Of a DNA stretch of 64,000 nt, positions 441 to 6,033 are shown piece by piece. How positions within the stretch are numbered: the stretch's first letter is position 1; each line of letters opens with the position of its first letter. Both the position numbers and the translations under genes were made by a program. The stretch is from an uncultured Pontibacter sp. (GTDB lineage: Bacteria; Bacteroidota; Bacteroidia; Cytophagales; Hymenobacteraceae). The stretch spans positions 372,001-436,000 of the forward strand of contig NZ_CANMNI010000003.1 of assembly GCF_947499215.1 (NCBI RefSeq). The letters are read 5' to 3'. The notes under the pieces are model-generated. The model made no database searches. It had not been told where the DNA came from and saw only the letters and a list, made by a program, of their open reading frames with translations.

Positions 441-498
441 CCTACAACGGCTCTGCTATAAGGTGGCCTAGTTAACTTATAGCAGAGCCGTTGTGTTT
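441..498 (-). repeat. Cassette boundary site D, perfect 19-bp stem hairpin
   Basis: A perfect inverted repeat has arms at 444-462 and 476-494 and a 13-base loop. It lies between the 506-964 gene and the GNAT gene. Read on the minus strand it opens with AAACACAAC (490-498) and closes with GTTGTAGG (441-448). The opening copy is complementary to the closing end of site C (981-989), so it forms the far end of the 506-964 cassette. It could also act as a terminator. Its perfect stem is stronger than a typical integron attC site. Confidence 0.7.
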
Positions 499-505
499 TC
501 GTTTT

Positions 506-964
506 TTATTCAGTTCCAAACACTTTCCCATTTAGTGTGTGAGTACAACAATCACAGGATGGAGCCAAGTCTTTCGCACTTAGCTCAGGATTTGTTAGCT
601 GTAATTTACCATCATTGTCAATGTACATTCCTGAGAAATAGGTAGATTCTCCAACTCTGACAAAATCTTTTCTCTCATCTTCATTCAGAGCGACTATCCT
701 ATATATAGGTTCAGGTTTATCCAAACGAGATTTGGCTTCGCTTAGGACTTCCTCCCAATCATTCCCAACTTTTGACAATAGAAATTTGTAAAGAGGTGTA
801 TAATCAAGTCCTCTTTCTTTTTTACCATGCATTGAACCTTTGGTTTGCTCAATTGTCTCTCGTTTTTTGTTCCTCGAATTTTTGAAATCACCACCAAAAT
901 TATGGCGAACACCTCTTGCTCTTGTATTTACCTTTCTAAATAGGGGTGTTTTATCTCTATTCAT
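506..964 (-). CDS. Hypothetical protein with C-terminal CxCC motif
   Basis: This is a 152-residue soluble protein with no signal peptide. The N-terminal 45 residues are very basic (many K and R). The middle contains DYTPLYKFLLSKVGNDWEEV, and the C-terminus has SCDCCTHTLNGKVFG, a cysteine cluster (CxCC) that could bind metal. I do not recognise a named family. It is AT-rich compared with the chromosome to its right. It fills most of the roughly 500 bp between sites C and D, the size and layout of an integron-type gene cassette. Function unknown. Confidence 0.75.
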   Translation of the reverse strand: MNRDKTPLFRKVNTRARGVRHNFGGDFKNSRNKKRETIEQTKGSMHGKKERGLDYTPLYKFLLSKVGNDWEEVLSEAKSRLDKPEPIYRIVALNEDERKDFVRVGESTYFSGMYIDNDGKLQLTNPELSAKDLAPSCDCCTHTLNGKVFGTE

Positions 965-980
965 TTCTTTTTTCTAAATG

Positions 981-1047
981 AAACACAACGTCTTGGGCAG
1001 CTGGTGAGCGAGGCGTAGTCAAGCATAAGGGTTGAAATTTGTTAGGT
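981..1047 (-). repeat. Cassette boundary site C (attC-like, 67 bp)
   Basis: Read on the minus strand, the site opens with ACCTAAC (1041-1047), which fits the integron inverse-core consensus RYYYAAC. It closes with GTTGTGTTT (981-989). ACCTAAC is the exact complement of GTTAGGT at the closing end of site B, on the other side of the 1053-1517 gene. GTTGTGTTT is the complement of the opening of site D. The interior has only short dyads such as CAGCTG, so a folded attC structure is not obvious by eye. Confidence 0.55.
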
Positions 1048-1052
1048 GGCTG

Positions 1053-1517
1053 TTATTTTTTATGCTCATCCCACTCTTCTTTTGTAAAACCTTTAGAGCC
1101 AAATAAACCACCAGCTCCAAAATCACTGTCTCCGATGTCTGCTAATTCTCCTTGGAAGCCGCTACCAAGTATAAATTTTACAGTCAAACCAAACACTGTA
1201 GCTATTTCCAGAGCCTTACTTGTAGGATTAAAGGTTATCACGTCAATGAAGTGATTGTCTTTAAATTTGTCGTCTTCTCCTTCTAATACAATTTCTTTTA
1301 TTCCTGATAATTTGATTAGAGATGTTTTGCCGCCAAAGCTGGTGCTTGTCCAAAACAAGAATTTCTTCCTTTTTACATTCTTGAAGCACCGTCTTTCTAC
1401 TTCAATTTCAATCGGCTTATCTATACTTAAGTTTTCAAGGTCTTCAAACTTAACACTGGCGTCGAAGAGTAGATGGTTTAGACTCTCTAAATCTTCTAAG
1501 TCAATTTTATAAACCAT
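1053..1517 (-). CDS. Hypothetical protein (cassette cargo)
   Basis: From the ATG at 1515-1517 this is a 154-residue acidic soluble protein. A longer reading starts with GTG at 1533-1535, but that codon abuts boundary site B, so I prefer the ATG. The first half (YKIDLEDLESLNHLLFDASVKFEDLENL) looks helical and acidic. The middle has VERRCFKNVKRKKFLFWT, and the C-terminus is glycine-rich (DSDFGAGGLFGSKGF) before EEWDEHKK. No signal peptide or membrane segment is visible. I recognise no family. The gene occupies almost all of the segment between sites B and C and is AT-rich. Confidence 0.7.
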   Translation of the reverse strand: MVYKIDLEDLESLNHLLFDASVKFEDLENLSIDKPIEIEVERRCFKNVKRKKFLFWTSTSFGGKTSLIKLSGIKEIVLEGEDDKFKDNHFIDVITFNPTSKALEIATVFGLTVKFILGSGFQGELADIGDSDFGAGGLFGSKGFTKEEWDEHKK

Positions 1518-1536
1518 TTTATACGATTTTAACACT

Positions 1537-1606
1537 ACCTAACGGACTGGTGTAGACGATGTGCAAGGCTTTCAGCCACAGCATAGAGTATACACGTGGT
1601 TGTAAG
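1537..1606 (-). repeat. Cassette boundary site B (attC-like, 70 bp)
   Basis: On the minus strand the site runs from CTTACAAC (1599-1606) to GTTAGGT (1537-1543); the latter fits the integron core consensus GTTRRRY. The interior holds GGCTgaaAGCC and the spaced pair GTGTA/TACAC, giving an imperfect hairpin with unpaired bases, as expected for attC. CTTACAAC is the exact complement of GTTGTAAG at the other end of the 1617-2096 gene segment. Confidence 0.6.
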
Positions 1607-1616
1607 GAGTACTTTT

Positions 1617-2096
1617 CTATGCGTGGGGAAAGGTTCCAGTAGGATAAGTTCTTTTTTTTCTTGTTAACTGAAATTCCTTTTCCCGTTTTATGCCTGTATC
1701 CAAGTCCTGCAAATACACAGTAACTTTAAGTCTTTTATTATTATCGATGATATAACTTAGGTTCTTATTCTGAAACCAGAATGATTTAAGTTTACCTATG
1801 TGGACTAACTCTAAAGTGTCTCCTGTTTCAGCAAATAGCACTTTTACATCAAGTATTTCTACCTTTTTTTCTGACTTTATACCCTTTAAGTGATCGTAGT
1901 AACCTTTTCCATAAGTAATGGGAGTATAAGCACCAATTATCAAGTAATCTTCTCCTTTAGCCCCTTGCTTTGTGCATTTCAAAATAAAGCCTTCGTCTCG
2001 AACATATTCTTCCTTCTTATGATGATTGTAAGACACAGCGGTATGGAAGGAGCAAGAGCTACAGAAAAGTAAAACGATAATTACAATTTTCTTCAT
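1617..2096 (-). CDS. Hypothetical lipoprotein (cassette cargo)
   Basis: The 159-residue product starts MKKIVIIVLLFCSSC, a short basic and hydrophobic signal ending in a plausible lipobox with Cys15 as the lipid-attachment site. The mature part is lysine-rich with beta-type segments such as EDYLIIGAYTPITYGKGYYDHLKG and LKVTVYLQDLDTG. It probably sits in the periplasm or outer membrane. I recognise no domain. It is AT-rich and fills the segment between sites A and B, each end of which carries the complementary octamer GTTGTAAG/CTTACAAC. Confidence 0.75.
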   Translation of the reverse strand: MKKIVIIVLLFCSSCSFHTAVSYNHHKKEEYVRDEGFILKCTKQGAKGEDYLIIGAYTPITYGKGYYDHLKGIKSEKKVEILDVKVLFAETGDTLELVHIGKLKSFWFQNKNLSYIIDNNKRLKVTVYLQDLDTGIKREKEFQLTRKKRTYPTGTFPHA

Positions 2097-2104
2097 TTGT
2101 ATTT

Positions 2105-2167
2105 CTTACAACTATCTGCTAGCAGGAACACCTACTCCCACTATCTGCACTATGTGTGGAGTTTAAC
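2105..2167 (-). repeat. Cassette boundary site A at the array edge
   Basis: On the minus strand this 63-bp site runs from GTTAAAC (2161-2167, fits GTTRRRY) to GTTGTAAG (2105-2112). It contains GCAGATAG twice and the 10-bp palindrome CTGCTAGCAG. It separates mgsA (stop at 2176) from the first AT-rich gene and so marks the junction of the island with conserved chromosome. It differs from sites B-D in that its outer end reads as a core site rather than an inverse core site. Confidence 0.5.
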
Positions 2168-5787: not shown

Positions 5788-6033
5788 TTAGCTCTGTTGC
5801 GCTATAATCTGTTTCACCAAGTCCTCATCCGACAAGGCCTCCATCCAATCTTTTGGCAGCTGCAAACGCACCGTCTGGGCGCCGCCGCTCGGGGTGCAGA
5901 CCACGGTCACATCGCCGTTTGTTTCTTCGGTCAGCTCAGCTGCCTTGTCTGCGTTTTCCTGTGATAAATTGCCATAGGCCTGCACGCAGGTCCAGTTAGT
6001 GTTTTCGCTGTCGGTAACTTCTCGTTGTGTCAT
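5788..6033 (-). CDS. Small hypothetical protein
   Basis: This is an 81-residue acidic soluble protein beginning MTQREVTDSENTNWTCVQAYG. It has no signal peptide or membrane segment. The composition is regular for a native gene (GC-rich, no rare-codon excess), and the pattern SQENADKAAELTEE followed by GDVTVVCTPSGGAQTVRLQLPKDW suggests a small alpha/beta fold. No family recognised. It stands alone between the LysR gene and the terminator of the glycan locus. Confidence 0.6.
   Translation of the reverse strand: MTQREVTDSENTNWTCVQAYGNLSQENADKAAELTEETNGDVTVVCTPSGGAQTVRLQLPKDWMEALSDEDLVKQIIAQQS

Follow-up and report, generated by a model that had tools for sequence, protein, structure and literature searches.

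Integron-type cassettes at a stand-alone attI-type site after mgsA in an uncultured Pontibacter, with a candidate recombinase encoded elsewhere in the genome

We analysed a 64-kb stretch of DNA from an uncultured Pontibacter (positions 372001-436000 of contig C3, in a genome of 4.31 Mb and six contigs; "the window" means this whole stretch), and the flank to the left of the window was added to the analysis of one locus. At that locus, near the window's start, lies what is close to certainly an integron-type cassette array at a copy of an attI site. All of its parts are on the minus strand and are given here from high to low coordinates. The host gene is the methylglyoxal synthase-like gene mgsA (2176-2550; Pfam MGS, E = 1.7e-7). 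At its 3' end is an attI-type docking site (2110-2156) whose crossover GTT is at 2112-2110. This site matches R3, our sequence model of 43 attI sites (C3:374110-374156, E = 2.1e-5), and is itself a member of the R3 training set. Cassette 1, the unit between two GTT crossovers, spans 1543-2111 and contains a gene for a putative lipoprotein of 159 amino acids (1617-2096; an open reading frame with no Pfam match over the cut-off) and an attC site (1537-1606). Cassette 2 (989-1542) has a gene for an unknown protein of 154 amino acids (1053-1517) and an attC at 981-1047, and cassette 3 (445-988) has a gene for an unknown protein of 152 amino acids (506-964; an open reading frame with no Pfam match) and an altered attC at 438-498. 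The last gene (1-418) extends beyond the window's start and encodes a GNAT acetyltransferase (Pfam Acetyltransf_3, E = 2.8e-22).

An earlier note, made from the letters of the window alone, had proposed that the sites between these genes are cassette recombination sites. Our covariance model of attC (R1) was built from 42 sites in integrase arrays, none of them from the window or from an mgsA locus. The stems covary in the alignment, with two-sided compensatory changes in 6 of the 11 pairs. In the window, R1 matches only two places, at 1537-1605 in the attC of cassette 1 (59.6 bits, E = 9.2e-15) and at 983-1047 in the attC of cassette 2 (42.3 bits, E = 1e-9); the next-best place in the 64 kb has E = 0.71. 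The attC of cassette 3 has no R1 match and is matched only by R2, a covariance model of a shorter attC class (26 bits, E = 3.9e-4). The proposal therefore stands for the second and third sites (by R1) and for the last (by R2), and the first site (2105-2167) is the attI-type site instead. Known attC sites fold better as the bottom strand, and the same is true here: the bottom strand is predicted to be more stable for cassette 1 (-7.8 vs -5.9 kcal/mol), for cassette 2 (-5.6 vs -1.7 kcal/mol), and for 124 of 146 sites overall (6 are equal). Outside the training sets the corresponding figure is 81 of 95 sites (3 equal). Across the 20 Pontibacter loci that encode the integrase described below, R1 finds 148 sites at E ≤ 0.05, with at least one site in 19 of the 20; at the sole locus without one, the contig stops about 260 bp past the integrase. 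These attCs have the R and L boxes and the structural conservation of integron attC sites.

The attC of cassette 3 has the perfect 19-bp stem that had been pointed out before, and it is an altered member of the short class: it lacks unpaired spacers. Its 37-nucleotide core is identical at 34 of 37 positions to short attCs in two other loci (L088 and L123). Where the attCs in L088 and L123 keep an unpaired left spacer, its left arm is fully complementary to the right arm. The change looks like the copying of a quasi-palindrome into a fully palindromic form, and it probably makes this a poor site for recombination.

The boundaries of the cassettes fall at G|TT and their ends are complementary. 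In the window, all three pairs of ends from the earlier note are found exactly where it placed them, pairing across each gene: CTTACAAC/GTTGTAAG at 2105-2112 and 1599-1606 (8 nucleotides, cassette 1), ACCTAAC/GTTAGGT at 1537-1543 and 1041-1047 (7 nucleotides, cassette 2), and AAACACAAC/GTTGTGTTT at 981-989 and 490-498 (9 nucleotides, cassette 3). We then counted ends at 148 model-defined sites from 26 of the 42 loci that were searched, after dropping 9 of the 148 that had no clear AAC or GTT at their ends, and considering only neighbouring sites that are 150-1300 nucleotides apart. At least 7 complementary end bases were present in 76 of 99 cassettes; for the two ends of a single site the count was 10 of 139, and when cassettes from the same arrays were mismatched it was 38 of 1093. 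So the pairing across the gene, and not across the site, is above chance. Because the R1 training sites were chosen with a chain finder, that is, for having complementary ends, we redid the counts without them. If all cassettes ending in a training site are excluded, the count is 39 of 58, vs 5 of 88 within a site and 19 of 657 for mismatched cassettes.

Chains of cassettes were identified with three versions of this finder: the first was too loose at array ends, the second was too strict, and the third is a compromise. With the third, 7 of 300 starts in reversed sequence led to a chain of at least four cassettes (the longest was 7, and the top score was 6.4), while real arrays of four or more cassettes scored 13-60. 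It found no chain at 5 of the 19 integrase loci (L079, L080, L082, L085, and L092). In L090, where the first chain finder read its longest array, no fewer than 16 cassettes have ends that are complementary over at least 7 bases.

These results also bear on the simplest alternative, an ordinary string of genes with terminator or repeat hairpins between them. One of the window's sites is indeed a near-perfect hairpin (fold z = -8.7), but the other two attCs fold no better than shuffled sequences. The attC model matches and the counts of cassette ends made without training sites, which also indicate that the sites are not placed at random relative to genes, refute this alternative, and the variable gene content described below argues against it as well; its probability is close to nil.

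The GNAT gene is a possible fourth cassette. Its start is preceded by GTTGTAGG, and the earlier note had predicted that a CCTACAAC end would lie on its far side. This prediction failed: no such end was found when the sequence was extended to the left, so the gene cannot be proven to be a cassette and has no recognisable end. In an oriented stretch of 18.6 kb, CTACAAC occurs once, at oriented position 6000, inside a flanking gene. A scan of the flank and the window's start against Rfam gave nothing over any gathering score. Past the GNAT gene and before the flank genes lie two more genes (L007:14274-15772), for a helix-turn-helix protein and a putative lipoprotein, with no recognisable attC; both are absent from the mgsA loci of 20 relatives.

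We found a single match to mgsA in each of 45 of 50 genomes from the genus, and we compared the mgsA loci of 20 relatives, mostly the nearest ones. Gene content at mgsA differs among them, in line with a cassette array. In close relatives, mgsA is followed by varying genes, most of which were seen in one locus only, and then by a common right flank. In the 20 other mgsA loci we found no second instance of any of the four genes that follow the site in the window. Directly after the mgsA stop codon is a conserved site ending in AGTT, and the sequences diverge immediately beyond it. We scored the locus in 30 genus genomes against the attI sites found at integrases, and the site is present in 14 (G035 is marginal). 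The window's copy is identical at 46 of 50 nucleotides to the attI of an integrase in the sister genome G003 (alignment score 42, as compared to a maximum of 10.5 for shuffled sequences). In a more distant species (G033, locus L067), the position after mgsA is occupied by a different type of attI. This suggests repeated gain or replacement of attI at mgsA.

The array has no integrase of its own. On the window's contig, Phage_integrase has no match, and the integrase type described below is absent from the 21 mgsA loci and the adjoining 16.5 kb. With two attCs at E = 1e-9 or better, one at 4e-4, and no integrase nearby, the array qualifies as a CALIN (a cluster of attC sites lacking an integron-integrase). 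The earlier note had allowed for "a divergent or integrase-less (CALIN-like) system", and both parts were right, since the IntI-like recombinases that the genome does encode have no IntI insert.

The note had suggested a search of the genome for a tyrosine recombinase with the IntI extra domain. Two IntI-like recombinases were found, on another contig (C1), and both lack the insert. In the genus genomes, the best sub-cut-off matches to TIGR02249 (the IntI family) are a tyrosine recombinase of 484-490 amino acids. The two copies in this genome are at L074, which is intact, and L073, which is interrupted. After the stop codon of the integrase, and on the same strand, comes an attI-type site and then cassettes; it is the same site as the one after mgsA. 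By inspection, such a site follows the integrase in 19 of the 20 Pontibacter loci, and in L086 it is present but reads AGTGTC where the others read AGTT. Thus attI adjoins the integrase at 19 of the 20 genus loci, and the window has attI without an integrase. It is likely that this family of 490-amino-acid recombinases built the array in the window.

This integrase is not a member of the IntI clade. The IntI-specific additional domain near patch III is absent from it, and in an alignment to the solved structure of IntI4, the match breaks at the place of the IntI insert. The spacing from the GKGxKxR motif to the HxLRH motif is 58-59 residues in the new type (for the 28 of 41 sequences, 17+11 of 18+23, in which both motifs could be read), 100 in 20 of 21 IntI, and 65-66 in 11 of 13 XerD. 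We also found 42 alignment columns that are specific to IntI. In a tree of 78 rows with Xer as the outgroup, the 21 IntI form one side of a branch with support 100/99, while all 41 sequences of the new type are outside of it, together with an integrase from Chryseobacterium (98/90); the program flagged long branches in this tree, and few other recombinases were included.

Could another recombinase have placed the cassettes? A canonical IntI might have passed through on a plasmid. Canonical IntI is common in the phylum, with 105 of 395 sampled genomes over the TIGR02249 cut-off, but the cut-off was reached in none of the 50 genus genomes and in 1 of 295 genomes from the window's class, and it is the resident recombinase that directly precedes the same attI and arrays. 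We consider this explanation very improbable. The housekeeping recombinases XerC and XerD, which are both encoded as full-length open reading frames in this genome, could conceivably move cassettes, and we give this equally little credence: the attI sites and arrays adjoin the 490-amino-acid recombinase rather than the two xer genes, and Xer sites are not hairpins with unpaired spacers.

The first 200 residues of the integrase are predicted to form two similar beta-beta-alpha-beta-beta-alpha units (mean predicted local distance difference test score, pLDDT, 78; predicted template modelling score, pTM, 0.49). The nearest solved folds are the damage-recognition domain of XPB (VIA Z 6.1 across 56 residues) and, more weakly, the HARP domain of SMARCAL1 (Foldseek probability 0.57, E = 0.21). 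Foldseek gave no match for this region at E = 0.001 or better. Its top rows were reverse transcriptases (E = 0.01), and VIA also returned retroviral integrase cores; we took these as chance. Pfam HARP (PF07443) reaches 21 bits in the integrase of L173 (E = 2.5e-4; the cut-off is 25), with weaker matches in L164 and L165 and none in L152 or in the two integrases of the window's genome. The predicted domain thus weakly resembles the HARP and XPB folds, and such Z values can mean merely a common arrangement. HARP and XPB damage-recognition domains are DNA-structure-binding modules, so the idea that the N-terminal domain grips the folded attC is attractive but unproven.

In all 20 Pontibacter loci and all 15 loci from other Hymenobacteraceae that were checked, the integrase is preceded by a divergent zinc-ribbon gene; among distant loci this holds for 1 of 24. 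The copy at L074:2118-2576 is small, starts with a CxxC...CxxxC pattern, and has no Pfam match over the cut-off. It is probably a regulator or an accessory factor. As an aside, a metagenome-assembled genome labelled Bacteroides fragilis (L149) contains a long-form integrase with a broken frame, together with a zinc-ribbon gene. This may be a binning error or a transfer.

The earlier note had remarked that integrons are rarely reported in Bacteroidota; this type of integrase is common in the genus at least, as the N-terminal domain was found in 42 of 50 sampled genus genomes. In the family it was found in 63 of 150 genomes; some of these matches are partial. Because a search of 394 other genomes in the phylum gave just 2 weak matches, the double-repeat form of the N-terminus seems to be almost restricted to the family. 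When we scanned with the entire integrase, there were 473 relatives, of which we kept 80. These include integrases from Rufibacter, Sabulibacter, Adhaeribacter, and Botryobacter, and, beyond the family, from Bacteroidales, Flavobacteriales, and others; those are mostly from metagenome-assembled genomes and many have a shorter N-terminus. Pontibacter-type attC sites are present in 14 of the 15 loci from other Hymenobacteraceae; one of these, L115, has them on the upstream side of the integrase only. Among the 24 distant loci, such sites were found in 3 (L156, L175, and L176). In six distant loci (L152, L156, L157, L162, L167, and L173), a chain of cassettes comes after the integrase, with L167 and L173 being positive by one cassette each. 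The chain test was weak for L169 and L174, and it failed or was no better than the control for L149, L158, L160, L164, L165, L166, L175, L176, and L198.

The attI-type site after mgsA is one of many in this genome. A whole-genome search for attC gave 41 matches at 21 places, which are the two integrases, the window, and 18 others. At 12 of the 18 there is an attI-type site clearly over background, usually just past another gene. At 7 of these 12, the sequence after attI starts with at least 7 bases that are complementary to the end at the first model-defined attC; at the remaining 5, there is, or may be, a short attC in between or a different spacing. The other 6 places have no clear attI (weak or none at L224, L227, L231, L234, and L239; marginal at L228).

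Conversely, R3 finds 20 attI-type sites in this genome (14 of them among its own training sites) and 12, 12, and 13 in the single-contig genomes of the relatives G029, G021, and G036. All 20 have a same-strand attC within 5 kb (the weakest has E = 0.009). Two of the 20 adjoin an integrase of the new type and 18 have no integrase. In the finished genome of G029, where only the integrase's site was in the R3 training set, 11 of 12 sites are followed by an attC. For the 29 stand-alone sites in these two genomes, the downstream open reading frame is co-directional in 29 of 29 cases, the upstream one in 24 of 29 (p = 5e-4; one site with no upstream open reading frame in the stretch was counted as not co-directional), and no site lies within an open reading frame. 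A 16-nucleotide motif from attI is present in 49 of 50 genus genomes, and the reversed motif is in none. By inspection, this genome has at least four types of attI: two correspond to the genome's own integrases and another two to integrases from sister species. We had expected attI to be a conserved hairpin, but RNAalifold found no consensus structure and only some types of attI have long inverted arms, so we do not propose that attI is folded.

We propose that the window contains a small cassette array at a free-standing attI-type site after mgsA, and that this site belongs to a distributed integron of about 20 sites that is served in trans by a recombinase encoded elsewhere in the genome. 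From the sequences compared here, we consider this probable. The bottom strand of attC would fold into a hairpin and serve as a single-stranded substrate. The 484-490 amino acid tyrosine recombinase would then cut attC at G|TT and attI at its terminal GTT, and the cassette would insert beside attI, in the direction of the upstream gene. A promoterless cassette could then be read from the upstream gene, which here is mgsA.

Several observations weigh against this proposal. Recombination is deduced from sequence, and no event has been observed. The integrase copy at L073:2400-3773 is interrupted close to the C-terminus and ahead of the catalytic tyrosine. Sub-cut-off matches to TIGR02249 are present in all 50 genus genomes and also in all 14 control genomes, so alone they prove nothing. 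The count of 20 attI-type sites is partly circular, given the sites on which R3 was trained. No recognisable attC was found for the GNAT gene and the two genes beyond it. The attI beside each of this genome's integrases differs in type from the mgsA site, whose type resembles the attI of integrases in other species. The mgsA site is present with no detectable integrase in G033 and G043. More generally, the mgsA site and the N-terminal domain of the integrase are not associated, because the domain is found in 11 of the 13 genomes that have a clear mgsA site and in 15 of the 16 scored genomes without one.

The match to integrases of other species, the lack of any integrase at mgsA in 21 loci, and the array's last attC, which is now a perfect palindrome, would also fit with the dispersed attI sites being remnants of complete integrons that have lost their integrase by deletion, with the arrays left frozen. 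We view this as rather unlikely. It would leave 18 of 20 sites in one genome without an integrase although two integrases were kept elsewhere, and the window's genes behind the site are absent from mgsA in 20 relatives, which implies exchange after any such loss.

As for the cargo, one array next to this genome's own integrases has a cassette with a HigB-like toxin and a helix-turn-helix partner (L073:6129-6747), and the other has a gene similar to mercuric transport proteins (MerT/HMA; L074:5218-5817). We compared 20 proteins encoded in the genome's own arrays and at its dispersed sites with Pfam, and 12 of them matched nothing at E = 0.001. Relatives of the cassette 2 protein were found in 7 of 149 other genomes from the family, all within the genus and none at mgsA; 3 of the 7 have an attC within 1.5 kb.

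In searches of the open full text in PubMed Central (PMC), which excludes subscription papers and preprints, none of the papers listed has a title or beginning of an abstract that describes integrons from Pontibacter or an integrase of this kind. According to a 2022 survey (PMC9024848), a complete integron was known among the Bacteroidetes proper only from Salinibacter ruber, and earlier reports were only of In0 elements, that is, integrases without cassettes. The same survey describes IntI as distinguished by its extra domain, and PMC9668308 describes this additional domain as defining; in these two papers the domain is described as necessary for integron recombination and is used in integron detection. 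Other papers treat the origins of CALINs and place Bacteroidota among the phyla with integrons (PMC8618304), the I2 helix (PMC4792948), and CALINs at seven loci in Xanthomonas (PMC12444791); PMC8565304 and PMC11023631 added nothing more on these points.

We lean, with little more than even confidence, towards a broader reading: the Bacteroidia would have a second class of integron whose integrase lacks the IntI domain, probably with a HARP/XPB-like grip on attC, with distributed copies of attI in the Hymenobacteraceae, and with a zinc-ribbon partner. An enzyme that lacks the IntI domain and yet heads canonical-looking attC arrays makes the requirement for that domain testable, and this type of integrase occurs in many members of a large bacterial class. 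Such an enzyme would also explain why the 2022 survey (PMC9024848) has a complete integron from the Bacteroidetes proper only for Salinibacter ruber. Standard searches for integrons may miss this system of gene capture. If we are right, then an integron can be a genome-wide network of docking sites rather than one platform, and cassette genes would be under the control of many host promoters instead of one array promoter, with attI after a dozen or more host genes.

How does this compare to known systems? As in canonical chromosomal integrons, the attCs have R and L boxes and a bias towards the bottom strand, crossovers follow the logic of GTT, the cassette genes are small and point in one direction, and integrase, attI, and array occur together. 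Unlike in canonical integrons, the integrase is outside the IntI branch, lacks the IntI insert, has an N-terminal extension and a zinc-ribbon neighbour, and is co-directional with the array, with attI after its stop codon; also, there are many copies of attI per genome. Some tyrosine recombinases near IS91-family elements have related catalytic cores, but the one from a Chryseobacterium plasmid (L199), which lies beside an IS91-family transposase, falls on a long branch that is separate from the new type. The HARP domain of SMARCAL1 and the damage-recognition domain of XPB show weak similarity in fold to the predicted N-terminal repeats. Like a CALIN, the window's array is a cluster of attCs without an integrase at a fixed place in the chromosome, and it may be mobilised in trans (CALINs are described in PMC9024848 and PMC12444791). 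Unlike a CALIN, it starts with a dedicated attI-type site, and in four genomes there are 12-20 such sites each. Finally, the attG insertion sites of Loot et al. 2024, as cited in PMC12444791, also let cassettes enter the genome away from an integron. The attG consensus, as cited there, is neither attC nor attI, whereas the docking site here is a conserved 45-nucleotide copy of the integrase's own attI.

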